DNA from: an uncultured Pelagibacteraceae bacterium
GTDB lineage: Bacteria > Pseudomonadota > Alphaproteobacteria > Pelagibacterales > Pelagibacteraceae
Reading direction: 5' to 3'
DNA: 64,000 nt
NCBI GenBank assembly: GCA_902605035.1
Contig: CACLBB010000002.1
Coordinates: 1-64,000, forward strand
Of the stretch, positions 10,696 to 53,639 are shown in pieces (position 1 is the first letter of the stretch; each line of letters begins with the position of its first letter). The notes under the pieces were generated by a model. The model did no database searches and was not told the origin of the DNA. It saw only the letters and a list, made by a program, of their open reading frames with translations. Both the position numbers and the translations under genes were made by a program.

Positions 10696-10752
10696 ATGTA
10701 TTTATATTTATATAAATTCAATAACTTAAGACTAATTGAGAAGGAAGTATGA
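10696..10752 (+). other. possible 18-codon leader ORF before the first small lipoprotein
   Basis: An ATG at 10696, three bases after a CGGAG, opens an 18-codon frame rich in Tyr/Leu codons. Its TGA overlaps the ATG of the downstream lipoprotein (ATGA), and the downstream Shine-Dalgarno (AAGGAA) lies inside it. The arrangement would permit translational coupling. Spacing between CGGAG and ATG is short, so translation is uncertain. Confidence 0.3.
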
Positions 10753-11072
10753 GGAAAATTTTTGTTTTGTTAGCAGCAATATTACTTAGCGGTTGCGCAG
10801 AGTCAGTTGCTTTACTTGGAAGTTCAATTGGTGGAGCATCTAATGGAAAAATGCTTCAATCCTCTTTGAATTCAGCCATAAGCTATGGGGTAAAAAAACA
10901 AACAGGCAAGGCACCACTGGAGCATGTTAAAGCTTATGCCAATAAAGTAAATCCTGAAAAGAAAAAAAAAGAACCCTGTGTATCTTTTCTTGAAAAAACT
11001 AATTCAGAAATTTGTTTAATTGTAAAAAAACAATTAATCTTAACAAAATCAAAAATAAAATATTTAGATTAA
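10749..11072 (+). CDS. small lipoprotein, tandem paralogue 1
   Basis: I do not recognise the family. The 107-residue product has a signal peptide and a lipobox (AAILLSGC), so it should be a lipid-anchored envelope protein with Cys17 as mature N-terminus. After it comes a Gly/Ser/Ala-rich stretch (LLGSSIGGASNGKM) that could be a glycine-zipper helix, then a Lys-rich tail with two Cys residues. It is strongly similar over about 90 residues to the next gene. An AAGGAAG Shine-Dalgarno sits just before the ATG. This copy ends early compared with its neighbour, so it may be a truncated or minimal form. Confidence 0.75.
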   Translation: MRKIFVLLAAILLSGCAESVALLGSSIGGASNGKMLQSSLNSAISYGVKKQTGKAPLEHVKAYANKVNPEKKKKEPCVSFLEKTNSEICLIVKKQLILTKSKIKYLD

Positions 11073-11215: not shown

Positions 11216-11704
11216 ATGAAAAAAATATTTTTTTTATTAACAGCTCTATTCTTGTTAAATGGATGCGCAGAGTCTATTGCGCTGCTTGGCAGCTCTGTTG
11301 GAGGAGCGTCTAGTGGAAAAATTGTTCAATCGTCTTTGAATTCAGCCATAAGTTACGGAATAAAAAAACAGACAGGAAAAACTCCTTTAGGCCACGTACT
11401 TGCATACGCTGAAGAAAAAAATCCTGAGAAAAAAAAAGACCCATGCTTTTCTTTTATTGAAAGTACGAGATCTGAATTCTGTACGATTGCAAAAAAACAA
11501 GTAACCTCAACCAACAATATAGTTAAAGAAAAAGCATTAAAAATTACTAAAAAATTCTCAAACACTAATAAAATAAAGGAAGCGATTTTAAATAAAGAAA
11601 ATAATTTAATAAGTAGTTTTAATCAAACAAGCAAATCTCCTAGAAAACTTGCGATATTCTACCAATCTAAAATAAAAAAAAGAAGCAATCGTAGCCCCAA
11701 TTAA
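11216..11704 (+). CDS. small lipoprotein, tandem paralogue 2
   Basis: The 162-residue paralogue of the preceding gene. It has a signal peptide with lipobox (LFLLNGC), the shared GSSVGGASSGK segment, the shared SSLNSAISYG and KKQTGK segments, and two conserved Cys residues in the middle. Unlike copy 1 it carries about 50 extra C-terminal residues that are basic and Ser/Asn-rich, ending in KIKKRSNRSPN, which may bind nucleic acid, lipopolysaccharide or peptidoglycan. No function is known to me. It ends inside a hairpin that probably terminates the transcript. Confidence 0.75.
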   Translation: MKKIFFLLTALFLLNGCAESIALLGSSVGGASSGKIVQSSLNSAISYGIKKQTGKTPLGHVLAYAEEKNPEKKKDPCFSFIESTRSEFCTIAKKQVTSTNNIVKEKALKITKKFSNTNKIKEAILNKENNLISSFNQTSKSPRKLAIFYQSKIKKRSNRSPN

Positions 11705-11729: not shown

Positions 11730-13022
11730 TTAAGCAGCTAATGCTTGTTTAATATCAGCAATTATATCGTCAGGATGCTCTATACCTATAGATAACCGTA
11801 CATACCCTGGTGTTACGCCTGCTGCTAGCAACTCTTTATCATTTAATTGACTGTGAGTTGTAGTAGCGGGATGTATAGCTAAACTTCTAGCATCCCCAAT
11901 ATTAGCAACGTGATAAAGCATTTTTAAATTGTCTATGAATTTTGCACCATTCTCTTTAGTGCCAACATCCATTCCAACCAATGAACCATACCCACCTTGC
12001 ATATACCTTTTTGCTCTTTCCTTTATCTCCCCTTGGTGATTAGTTGGATAAATTACATTTGTAACTTTCTTTTGTGTTTCTAAAAATGATACAACCTTTT
12101 CCGCATTAGCACAGTGTTGTTTCATTCTTAAAGCAACAGTTTCTAATCCTTGTATAATTTGCCAAGCATTAAATGGACTTAAAGGCGCTCCTAAATCTCT
12201 AAGTAAAACCACTCGAGCTCTTATTGCAAAAGGAATATTGGCTCCCGTTAATTGAGGAACTGCATCAGCCCATATTGCACCATTATAACTTTGATCAGGT
12301 TCGTTCATTAATGGTTGTCTTTTTCTGTCTTTTGTCCAGTCAAAGTTACCACCATCTACAACTATACCTCCAATTGAAGTTCCGTGACCTCCAATATATT
12401 TTGTCAAAGAATGCATTACTACAGCTGCTCCATGCGCCAAAGGTTTACAAATAACTGGAGAGGCTGTGTTATCGATGATTAAAGGTATTCCTTTTTTTCT
12501 ACCGATATCTGCAACTTCTTTTATTGGAAAAACTCTAAGATAAGGATTTGGACAAGACTCGCCGTAGTAAGCTCTTGTTTTTTCATCAGTTAGTTTTTCA
12601 AAGTTTTTTGGGTCAGCCGGATCCGCAAACCTCACTTCAATACCCTCTAACCTCAATTGATTCTTAAATAGATTTACTGTTCCTCCGTAGAGATCTGTTG
12701 AAGCTACTATATTATCTCCAGTTTGAGCTACGTTTTTAACACAAAATGCAGATGCAGCTTGACCCGAGCCAACGGCCACCGCTGCTAAACCGCCCTCTAG
12801 AGCTGCAACTCTTTTTTCCAACACATCACAAGTCGGATTCATTATTCTTGTATAAATATTTCCAAATTCTTTTAAACCAAATAAGTTTGCTGCTGTCTCT
12901 GCATTTTTAAACTGGTAAGATGTAGTTTGATAAATTGGAACTGCCACTGATGTGGTCGTAGGATCGCTTCTGTATTCCCCACCGTGTAAACCAATAGTTT
13001 CCGGATGTTTAAAATTTGCCAT
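11730..13022 (-). CDS. metY: O-acetylhomoserine sulfhydrylase (aminocarboxypropyltransferase)
   Basis: PLP enzyme of the Cys/Met metabolism family that makes homocysteine directly from O-acetylhomoserine and sulfide in methionine synthesis. The 430-residue length and the N-terminal ETIGLHGGEYRSDPTTTSVAV are typical of MetY. The PLP lysine is K208 in HSLTKYIGGHG; the late VRLSIGIEHPDDI motif is also present. Start is ATG at 13022 with AAGGAG 8 bases upstream. The leader carries two SAM-responsive RNA elements and a terminator, so high SAM should lower expression twice. It converges on the lipoprotein gene. Confidence 0.96.
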   Translation of the reverse strand: MANFKHPETIGLHGGEYRSDPTTTSVAVPIYQTTSYQFKNAETAANLFGLKEFGNIYTRIMNPTCDVLEKRVAALEGGLAAVAVGSGQAASAFCVKNVAQTGDNIVASTDLYGGTVNLFKNQLRLEGIEVRFADPADPKNFEKLTDEKTRAYYGESCPNPYLRVFPIKEVADIGRKKGIPLIIDNTASPVICKPLAHGAAVVMHSLTKYIGGHGTSIGGIVVDGGNFDWTKDRKRQPLMNEPDQSYNGAIWADAVPQLTGANIPFAIRARVVLLRDLGAPLSPFNAWQIIQGLETVALRMKQHCANAEKVVSFLETQKKVTNVIYPTNHQGEIKERAKRYMQGGYGSLVGMDVGTKENGAKFIDNLKMLYHVANIGDARSLAIHPATTTHSQLNDKELLAAGVTPGYVRLSIGIEHPDDIIADIKQALAA

Positions 13023-13029
13023 TTTTTTT

Positions 13030-13085
13030 CTCCTTTTTAGTACTTCGACATTATGTCAGGCGTACAATATAGTTCAAATACCTGG
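13030..13085 (-). ncRNA. SAM-V-type riboswitch overlapping the metY ribosome binding site
   Basis: On the minus strand the leader shows CAGG (13085-13082) pairing with CCTG (13060-13057), an inner hairpin GACA/TGTC, and GTAC pairing with a second GTAC just before CTAAAAAGGAG. These form an H-type pseudoknot whose 3' strand runs into the Shine-Dalgarno (13034-13030). This matches the SAM-V element known upstream of metY in Pelagibacter, which blocks translation when SAM binds. Identification is by eye from the core and context. Confidence 0.75.
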
Positions 13086-13104
13086 TTTTAATCTGATAAT
13101 TTTC

Positions 13105-13133
13105 AAAAAAAAACCACCGGCTAAAGCGGCGGT
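13105..13133 (-). terminator. SAM-controlled intrinsic terminator in the metY leader
   Basis: Minus-strand stem ACCGCCG/CGGTGGT (7 bp with one G-U pair, 13133-13127 with 13119-13113) and loop CTTTAGC, followed by nine Us (13113-13105). The loop plus the adjoining stem base CG is perfectly complementary over 9 bases to the 3' strand of the upstream aptamer (GCTAAAGCG at 13155-13147), which gives an obvious antiterminator. Confidence 0.8.
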
Positions 13134-13146
13134 CTAAAGACTTAAT

Positions 13147-13198
13147 CGCTTTAGCTGGAATTTTTAAAGCGCTCAGCAATTTGACCTAAATCAGCGCT
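13147..13198 (-). ncRNA. SAM-II-type riboswitch aptamer, metY leader
   Basis: Minus-strand core AGCGCTGATTTA ... TTGCTGAGCGCT ... CAGCTAAAGCG. The P1 helix is AGCGCT/AGCGCT and the loop/3' strand (TTGCTG with CAGCTAA) forms the pseudoknot. The GATTTA and GCTAAA blocks are SAM-II signatures. The aptamer begins about 7 bases after the predicted -10 box, and its 3' strand doubles as the antiterminator strand. SAM binding would hide that strand, allow the terminator to form and stop transcription. Confidence 0.82.
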
Positions 13199-13204
13199 AT
13201 AAAC

Positions 13205-13234
13205 TGATTATGGACCTTTGCTATGAATTGTCAA
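13205..13234 (-). promoter_or_regulatory. metY: sigma-70 promoter of metY
   Basis: Minus-strand -35 TTGACA (13234-13229), 18-base spacer, -10 TAATCA (13210-13205); a CATAAT two bases earlier gives an alternative with a 16-base spacer. Either start lies right at the 5' edge of the SAM-II aptamer, consistent with a leader of about 180 bases. Confidence 0.6.
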
Positions 13235-13336: not shown

Positions 13337-14587
13337 GTGAAAAAAAAATATTCATTTTTAAGTTTAATAAAAAACGCTTTTACCAATAACGAAAATTGGG
13401 AAAAGATGTGGGAAAGCCCTGAACCAAAAAAAGGGTACGATGTAATAATTGTTGGAGGTGGAGGACATGGTCTCGGAACAGCTTATTATTTAGCAAAAGA
13501 ACATGGAATTAAAAATATAGCTGTCATAGAGAAAGGCTGGTTAGGTGGAGGTAATACTGGAAGAAATACTACTATCATTAGATCAAACTATCTTTGGAAT
13601 GAGAGCGCTAACCTTTATGACCATTCAGTCAAATTATGGGAAAATTTATCGGATGAATTAAATTTTAACATGATGTTTAGTCAAAGAGGAGTAATGAATT
13701 TAGCTCATAACGAGCATGATATTAAAGAAATGAAAAGAAGAATAAGTGCAAACAGATTAAATGGTCTTGACACTCAATGGCTTGATACAAAACAAATTGA
13801 AGAATTAGTACCGATCATGAATACTAAAAACTTAAGATATCCTGTTCTAGGTGCAGCTTTTCAACCAAGAGGAGGTGTTGCAAGACACGATGCAGTTGCT
13901 TGGGGCTATGCATTAAGATCAAATGAAATGGGAGTTGACATAATTCAAAACTGTGAAGTTAAAGATATTAAAACTGACAATTATAAAGTTGAAGGAGTTA
14001 ATACCTCAAAAGGTTTTATTAAGGCTAATAAAGTTGCAGTAGTAGCCTCAGGTCACACAAGTGTCCTTGCGCAAACTGCTGGAGTTAAGTTACCTCTACA
14101 AAGTAGACCTCTACAAGCTTTAGTGTCTGAACCAATTAAACCAGTGATAAATACTGTAGTGATGTCTAATGCTGTTCATGCTTATGTTAGTCAGTCAGAC
14201 AAGGGTGAACTTGTAATAGGAGCTGGTACAGATGGCTATAATTCTTTTACACAAAGAGGTGGTTATGATGTTATAGAGGAAACAGTGCGAGCTATCGTAG
14301 AGCTTTATCCAATTTTTGGTAAAATGAAAATGTTACGTCAGTGGGGAGGCATAGTAGACATTTGTCCCGATGCAAGTCCAATAATCAGTAAATGCGAAGT
14401 TCAAGGATTATATTTTAATTGTGGATGGGGAACAGGTGGATTTAAAGCAACACCTGGAAGTGCAAATGTTTTTGCACACACTGTTGCAAAAGATGAACCT
14501 CATAAAATTAATGCAGCTTTTAATCTTGAGAGATTTTCCGATGGAAGATTAATTGATGAGCATGGTGCAGCAGCAGTGGCACATTAA
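13337..14587 (+). CDS. soxB: sarcosine oxidase beta subunit
   Basis: Catalytic flavoprotein subunit of heterotetrameric sarcosine oxidase, which demethylates sarcosine to glycine and passes the methyl to tetrahydrofolate. The 416 residues contain the FAD motif GGGGHGLG (40-47) and RHDAVAWGY with His184, the residue that carries covalent FMN in characterised beta subunits. The C-terminal [16 protein letters not shown] segment is also typical. It starts with GTG at 13337, in a 5' region shared divergently with metY; no convincing promoter is seen. soxD follows 2 bases later. Confidence 0.95.
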
Positions 14588-53435: not shown

Positions 53436-53599
53436 ATAACTCTTTTACCAGCCCAATCTGTCTTTTTACCTGAGAGATTTAATCCTTCGGTGAGGCCTAA
53501 GCCTTCTTTCCAGAGTTATCACTGTAACGGTCCGTTTGCCTGAGAGTTTCTTGGGTATTTGCTCCTTCGGCGCTAAATAAATTAGTCTCTCCCGTTACA
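53436..53599 (-). ncRNA. tandem glycine riboswitch, gcvT leader
   Basis: On the minus strand, aptamer 1 is closed by TGTAACGG/CCGTTACA (53599-53592 with 53530-53523) and contains CGCCGAAGGAGCAA and GAAACTCTCAGGCAAACGGAC. Aptamer 2 is closed by ATAACTCT/AGAGTTAT (53519-53512 with 53443-53436) and contains CACCGAAGGATTAAA and TCTCAGGTAAAAAGACAG. Both show the conserved glycine-riboswitch core. The aptamer-2 closing strand covers AGAG, the likely Shine-Dalgarno of gcvT, one base from the ATG. A TTGACA occurs at 53633-53628 but lacks a convincing -10. Confidence 0.95.
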
Positions 53600-53639
53600 T
53601 TCAGACTTTCTCCTAAATGAAATAAAATGTCAAATACTT

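Follow-up and report, generated by a model that had tools for sequence, protein, structure and literature searches.

SAR11 bacteria rank among the ocean's most abundant cells, and the window analysed here is the whole of a 64,000-nucleotide stretch of DNA from one uncultured member of the Pelagibacteraceae. Its minus strand carries metY (11730–13022, start ATG at 13022), an O-acetylhomoserine sulfhydrylase gene whose product matches O-acetylhomoserine aminocarboxypropyltransferase (TIGR01326) with 558.5 bits against a curated cut-off of 495.1. The divergent neighbour on the plus strand is soxB (13337–14587; sarcosine oxidase beta family, TIGR01373), and in several other leaders the upstream sequence is different. 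Between the two genes, reading the minus strand towards metY, lie a promoter, a SAM-II aptamer, an intrinsic terminator and a SAM-V aptamer, the regulated gene being metY. The initial annotation had proposed this order, with the second aptamer placed over the Shine–Dalgarno sequence, and both proposals were borne out by covariance models, promoter and terminator patterns and TIGR01326. The promoter (13207–13234) pairs a −35 box TTGACA (13234–13229) with a −10 box CATAAT (13212–13207) across a 16-nt spacer, with 11 of 12 matches, implying a transcription start at about 13200. The SAM-II aptamer occupies 13147–13198, its P1 helix formed by AGCGCT (13198–13193) with AGCGCT (13173–13168), and its P2 pseudoknot is placed at UUGC (13179–13176) with GCUAA (13155–13151). 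In the terminator (13105–13133) a 5′ arm ACCGCCG (13133–13127), a loop (13126–13120) and a 3′ arm CGGUGGU (13119–13113) belong to a stem of nine pairs within 13135–13111, and a U-tract of nine T follows at 13113–13105. The SAM-V aptamer (13027–13092) covers the Shine–Dalgarno AGGAG (13034–13030) with its 3′ part, close to the metY start codon.

We compared this leader with those of close relatives, taken from 50 SAM-V loci of the window's genus (its own genome included) and from the best 80 of 454 metY contigs, which represent near relatives only (MetY 88–99% identical); some genomes occur in both sets. All 127 SAM-V sites so obtained (the 50 loci plus 77 of the 80 contigs) had a SAM-II core pattern and a U-tract upstream, and they comprise 97 distinct leaders. 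SAM-V was not found in three of the 80 contigs, two of which (L070 and L083) begin too near metY to tell, the third being L116. A sigma-70-like site with at most three mismatches stands 6–10 nt before the GCGC of P1 in 97/97 distinct leaders versus 10/97 shuffled upstream segments, and transcription therefore probably begins almost at the aptamer. No SAM-V was detected in 11 genomes of the first search and seven of the second (two shared; 16 in all) belonging to the same genus. A MetY search of these 16 gave some match in 12, only a distant one (25–35% identity) in 11 of the 12, and none in four; in one of the 16, G005, a 94% metY lies close to the end of a contig, with another gene in front of it. 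Since these genomes are only 55–95% complete, a missing leader is no proof of absence, and leader loss within the genus was rejected as a conclusion.

The identities of the two aptamers rest on different models. Searching with the Rfam covariance models, the check put forward in the initial annotation, upheld the downstream element as SAM-V (RF01826, 13092–13027, 77.4 bits against a gathering score of 41) but gave the upstream element only 21.4 bits with RF00521 (13207–13130, E 0.011 in a 391-base search), below the SAM-II gathering score of 36. The same model yields no match at E≤1 in the bhmT leader of HTCC1062 (L163), though the SAM-II there is reported to bind SAM; the cut-off is thus insensitive here, and we did not treat the gathering score as a defining feature. 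As a census tool, RF00521 below its gathering score was rejected, for at E≤1 it also matches 10 of 14 control genomes. We therefore relied on a covariance model, R1, constructed from 19 SAM-II sequences, none of them from the window's genus. R1 placed the aptamer at 13198–13147 with 66.9 bits and an E-value of 5e-15, the next match in the 64 kb having E 0.6, which rules out a chance resemblance and identifies the element as a homologue of the bhmT-type SAM-II of SAR11. The aligned window and HTCC1062 bhmT aptamers have 44 of 53 columns in common. The element has the form of an H-type pseudoknot, with P1, an L1 core GAUUU, and P2 between UUGC and GCUAA, where the register of P2 follows the published SAM-II fold. 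Across the 97 close-relative leaders the cells of P1 and P2 are paired in 99.9% of cases and mostly invariant. Two core positions do vary: at columns 14 and 24 of alignment A1 (T and A in the window), 72/97 leaders have GAGUU...CUUGC versus 21/97 with GAUUU...AUUGC, while G/A occurs in three and C/C in one. These columns fall broadly in the region of reported SAM contacts and may matter for binding.

A score below the gathering threshold would suit a reading in which the SAM-II element is a relic, the terminator a fixed attenuator and SAM-V the only sensor. The pairing of P1 and P2 in nearly every cell speaks against this, as does a core very like that of the HTCC1062 aptamer, for which SAM binding with a KD of 1.2 μM is quoted (PMC5069961).

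The link between the upstream aptamer and the terminator is a candidate antiterminator. The initial annotation had reported that GCTAAAGCG (13155–13147), at the 3′ end of the aptamer, is a perfect complement of CGCTTTAGC (13128–13120) in the terminator; the two are indeed exact reverse complements at exactly these coordinates. Its claim that the antiterminator could be read directly from these nine bases stands as regards the pairing, and has to be amended as regards the length, for the helix extends further. The 5′ strand CCAGCUAAAGCG (13147–13158), which contains the 9-mer GCUAAAGCG (13155–13147), is common to aptamer P2, and the 3′ strand CGCUUUAGCCGG (13117–13128), which contains CGCUUUAGC (13128–13120), spans the 5′ arm, the loop and the 3′ arm of the terminator. 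In the unconstrained minimum free energy (MFE) fold, CC (13158–13157) additionally pairs with GG (13118–13117), and GUC (13141–13139) pairs with GAC (13134–13132) in a capping hairpin (13132–13141). When the downstream segment was dinucleotide-shuffled 20,000 times, 14 of the shuffles held the exact 9-mer complement, 152 held at least 8 complementary bases, and 1,394 held a match of at least 9 somewhere in the aptamer. With such chance figures, conservation is the stronger argument for an antiterminator.

GCUAAAGCG does not vary at all among the 97 distinct close-relative leaders; opposite it stands CGCUUUAGC in 66, CGCUUUAGU in 27, CGCUUUAGA in two, and UGCUUUAGC and CGCUUUGGC in one each. 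All nine standard pairs are kept in 95/97 and eight in the other two, and the loss of complementarity in close relatives that the initial annotation had named as evidence against its reading was accordingly not seen. The GUC..GAC capping hairpin was found by pattern search in 94/97 leaders, and standard pairing holds in 100% of the cells of the seven terminator pairs. Most of the 9-mer's terminator half falls within the hairpin loop, where a plain terminator would not need such conservation. Sited as it is in an intergenic region, the hairpin with its U-tract could in principle end an upstream transcript and have no part in metY control. That idea is hardly credible, since soxB is divergent, which rules out the terminator as the end of the upstream gene, and since in every one of the 97 distinct leaders the hairpin is preceded by the aptamer and by a promoter-like site. 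Covariation within this set was rejected as proof of the antiterminator: the helix hardly varies there, 54 of 500 shuffles reaching the observed pairing, and its statistics are uninformative. For this reason the comparison was taken across genera.

The cross-genus set comprised 33 terminator-type leaders (32 distinct) from several genera and a second family; these were chosen by hand with a script whose pattern demanded the layout, and they are consequently not a census. In the 32 distinct leaders the 12-position antiterminator forms standard pairs in 90.4% of 384 cells, and 12 cells are changed on both sides, compared with a shuffled mean of 3.3. Neither value was reached in any of 500 shuffles, and registers slid along the alignment gave at most 52.3% pairing. 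Two of the five measures, the number of antiterminator pairs with a both-side change (three; 109/500 shuffles as high) and that of further pair types (eight; 49/500), are not exceptional, and the both-side changes may rest on few independent events. For the terminator, 97.8% of cells are paired and four are changed on both sides, with 0/500 shuffles as high. A matched change is found in five loci (L206 and L208–L211), in which the SAM-II strand reads AAAUAG for AAAGCG, the terminator strand CUAUUU for CGCUUU, and the opposite terminator arm matches. Column 74 of the alignment partners column 52 in one fold and column 82 in the other. In the four distinct rows that these loci provide, C52-G74-C82 becomes A-U-A in three and A-U-G in L209, so that one base has altered together with its partners in both folds. 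Matched substitution in antiterminator and terminator supports the existence of two mutually exclusive folds, as judged from the alignment; the five leaders are related, and their substitutions may be one event. Columns 44 and 82 appear as U-A, A-U, G-U and U-G and are unpaired in 23/32 leaders, which makes this pair optional. By eye, no antiterminator complement was seen in L203, a leader from another genus with a SAM-II-like element (1657–1615, minus strand), a terminator and SAM-V. Predicted folds and alignments together describe the layout of an attenuator, in which mutually exclusive helices have a strand in common and one of them is followed by a U-tract.

Folding was carried out with a program that models neither pseudoknots nor SAM. 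The unconstrained MFE contained the antiterminator in 80 of the 97 leaders and lacked it in 17, with the terminator present in 16; when the GCUAAA strand was held as in the pseudoknot, the terminator formed in 95/97. Folding the window's leader with and without the aptamer constrained, as had been proposed, gave the same dichotomy, the free leader adopting the antiterminator and the leader with its P2 strands held adopting the terminator. By transcript length, the full antiterminator (nine pairs) appeared in the free RNA at 13120, with no terminator at any later length to 13100, whereas with the P2 strands held the terminator was present from 13114 on. For transcripts ending at 13147–13123 the partner of the P2 3′ strand in the free MFE is mostly the P1 3′ region (seven pairs), which in these models is a possible intermediate before 13120. 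The same early pairing, together with the appearance of the terminator in the MFE of a minority of the leaders, would be compatible with SAM-II acting through another helix (for example, the P1 3′ strand with UAAAGCG), the terminator forming by default and the antiterminator pairing being incidental. We consider this unlikely, given that 95/97 leaders have an identical or wobble-compatible terminator half of the 9-mer, with one mismatch in two, and that the helix shows changes on both sides across genera. In two further leaders the terminator is itself the MFE, namely that of metX in the window's own genome, with or without the constraint, and that of L168 from the second family.

We favour, with a probability of roughly 0.85, a two-stage SAM-feedback leader for metY in which SAM-II acts on transcription and SAM-V on translation. 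This transcriptional-then-translational reading, already offered in the initial annotation, fits the computational tests of aptamers, terminator, conservation and folds; its statement that one ligand controls both stages is an inference. From the parts, their order and conservation, and the exclusive predicted folds with compensatory change, all of which are observed, we infer SAM binding by each aptamer here, termination in vivo and the timing of events as follows. Polymerase would start at about 13200 and make the SAM-II aptamer first. With SAM bound, GCUAA would be locked in the P2 pseudoknot, the terminator hairpin would form and transcription would stop at the U-tract. Without SAM, GCUAAAGCG and the preceding CC would pair with CGCUUUAGC(C)GG once polymerase passes 13120, and the antiterminator would close before the 3′ arm of the terminator (13119–13113) has fully emerged, allowing readthrough. 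In the finished mRNA, SAM-V would fold over the Shine–Dalgarno sequence on binding SAM and block metY translation. On this scheme SAM-II would be read only briefly, from completion of the aptamer at 13147 to a decision by about 13113, and SAM-V for the lifetime of the mRNA.

Tandem SAM-II/SAM-V leaders are established in SAR11, as the initial annotation stated; its placing of the known tandem before metY does not agree with the portions of PMC2704228 and PMC5069961 covered, which put it before bhmT of HTCC1062. The bhmT tandem figures in PMC11508383, PMC9481103 and PMC5069961, all citing Poiata 2009. SAM-II before SAM-V is termed a bi-mechanism arrangement, with 120 original and 149 later examples and, among the original ones, a terminator always after SAM-II (PMC9481103). 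For metY and mmuM of HTCC1062 no aptamer but SAM-V is listed, SAM-II being placed before bhmT and metX (PMC2704228, PMC5069961); a tandem before metY is not described in the parts of these two papers covered. Methionine-making genes in HTCC1062 sit behind SAM riboswitches (PMC5069961). We took genome G106 to be HTCC1062 because three SAM-V sites fall inside intergenic regions printed in PMC2704228. Its bhmT leader (L163) resembles that of the window in the order SAM-II, terminator, SAM-V, in the aptamer identity given above, and in an antiterminator, CCUGCUAAAGCG with CGCUUUAG(A)CAGG, of 12 pairs and a one-base bulge, which is the MFE. It differs in that the window tandem stands before metY, a gene listed in HTCC1062 under SAM-V alone, and in having a leader ORF (L163 1051–980, minus strand, by eye) after SAM-V, whereas the window SAM-V stands directly before the metY start. 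The SAM-II of Sinorhizobium meliloti metZ (SAM_alpha, RF00521; PMC9373788) likewise has a Rho-independent terminator predicted to form on SAM binding; unlike this type, the window SAM-II is followed by a second aptamer class and falls below the Rfam gathering score. The SAM-V of HTCC1062 metY (RF01826; crystal structure in PMC6061858) is of the same aptamer family and also overlaps the Shine–Dalgarno sequence, but the element upstream of it is SAM-II-like and terminator-less (E 0.092 alone), while that of the window is a terminator-type SAM-II.

The bhmT comparison bears on whether SAM-II is a relic. In the HTCC1062 tandem, SAM-II is reported to be unresponsive to SAM once the linker is present, for a reason called not understood (PMC11508383), and it could be non-functional in that context; in the same paper the linker is described as a predicted hairpin before a poly-U, the words terminator and antiterminator being unused in the parts of that paper covered. 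This silence in the full-length RNA is what the relic reading would lead one to expect, yet the antiterminator could explain the lost response. The 12-pair helix being the MFE of L163, we offer as our own reading that refolded full-length bhmT RNA may settle in the antiterminator and that SAM-II would then sense only during transcription. The mRNA and protein of bhmT, mmuM and metY rise in HTCC1062 under sulfur limitation (PMC5069961), which also tells against a relic, but metY and mmuM are listed there with SAM-V. Overall, a SAM-II without sensing function appears very unlikely, and we retain the two-stage leader.

The two aptamers also occur apart. In the whole genome of the window, R1 at E≤1 finds two places, the metY leader and a second SAM-II with terminator (G000:C10:7800–7848; L179:801–849) before a metX-like gene, the latter read from sequence and not from a family search; no SAM-V accompanies it. 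In this metX-like leader the loop UUUAGC could also pair with GCUAAA. On L116 (820–925), SAM-II and its terminator are followed directly by a bhmT-like gene and metY; no SAM-V was seen there, making this a single-sensor version that occurs naturally. These natural separations suggest that SAM-II and SAM-V are independent modules. Elsewhere in the window we noted a glycine riboswitch aptamer (53518–53604, minus strand; RF00504, 73.3 bits) and, at 10749–11072 and 11216–11704 of the plus strand, two small neighbouring genes that resemble each other in their N-terminal halves and have lipobox-like starts, an apparent tandem duplicate with no NCBIfam match at E≤0.001.

In many relatives (for example, L013 and L007) SAM-V lies over the Shine–Dalgarno sequence of a short leader ORF, mostly of 17–21 codons. 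Among 76 distinct SAM-V-to-gene intervals from 133 sites (L060, with no AGGAG match, dropped; L073 counted by eye; L056 moved to the direct class), 15 run into a leader ORF ahead of a bhmT-like gene, 48 into one ahead of metY and 13 directly into the gene. In 14/15 of the bhmT-like cases the stop codon of the leader ORF starts either 1 or 5 nt downstream of the first base of the gene's start codon. Before metY, the stop overlaps a second start (ATGA) lying within an apparent hairpin in 32/48, with an early stop in four and an ORF that runs on in 12. Viewed by eye, the apparent hairpin covers the next Shine–Dalgarno sequence after the leader ORF, and overlap and hairpin together make translational coupling likely. 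SAM-V on a short leader ORF is not described in the portions covered of the PMC-cited SAM-II/SAM-V literature. More broadly, no title or abstract in the SAM-II/SAM-V literature covered pointed to an antiterminator, a leader ORF or a SAM-II of Pelagibacter metY, most subscription papers and Poiata 2009 lying outside that scope.

A related arrangement emerged in the genus of HTCC1062, where 69 distinct leaders (among L133–L262) have a SAM-II-like element near SAM-V and no terminator. In HTCC1062 itself the element lies just upstream of SAM-V at metY (L164:762–804) and at mmuM (L165:1107–1065), the mmuM copies of Pelagibacter being assigned from nothing more than their first codons. All 44 of the 69 leaders that were searched with R1 gave a match to the element (E 3e-6 to 0.36, with one off-site match at E≤1), the individual HTCC1062 copies being weak (metY E 0.092, mmuM E 0.015); 46 of the 69 sequences were aligned. 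The SAM-V pattern missed 16 of 113 loci, and the SAM-II core pattern missed L200 and L201, which carry the element. Of the weak SAM-V loci L205–L219, L205–L211 and L217 were viewed and L212–L216, L218 and L219 left out; L205, L207 and L217, with SAM-V before metY-like genes, had no evident SAM-II upstream. Duplexes of the element's 5′ strand with the segment preceding SAM-V were scored for 67 distinct pairs: their median is −11.0 kcal/mol, that of shuffles −7.1. In only 33/67, though, do 5 or fewer of 100 shuffles equal the real duplex, and its register is not constant. Some mmuM versions build a similar helix from different bases. We propose tentatively, as an idea more doubtful than probable, a single SAR11 SAM-II/SAM-V family in which SAM-II would report by strand exchange with whatever follows it. 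The partner would be the terminator loop here and in HTCC1062 bhmT, readable only during transcription and silent in the finished RNA; in Pelagibacter metY and mmuM, the terminator having been lost, the P1/L1 5′ strand would exchange with the segment just 5′ of SAM-V. In the portions of the literature covered, we found no description of a SAM-II-like element next to SAM-V, without a terminator, in Pelagibacter metY and mmuM, nor of a direct coupling of two aptamer classes that sense one ligand, which this proposal would entail if true.

The tandem SAM-II/SAM-V design is already known, and what is added here is the comparative evidence for an antiterminator. Taken together with its bhmT counterpart, the antiterminator with its compensatory changes predicts that SAM-II would bind SAM in transcripts ending before the terminator loop and lose binding in those extending beyond it. 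It also suggests a division of labour in these leaders, one sensor being read a single time, as the leader is transcribed, and the other throughout the life of the mRNA.
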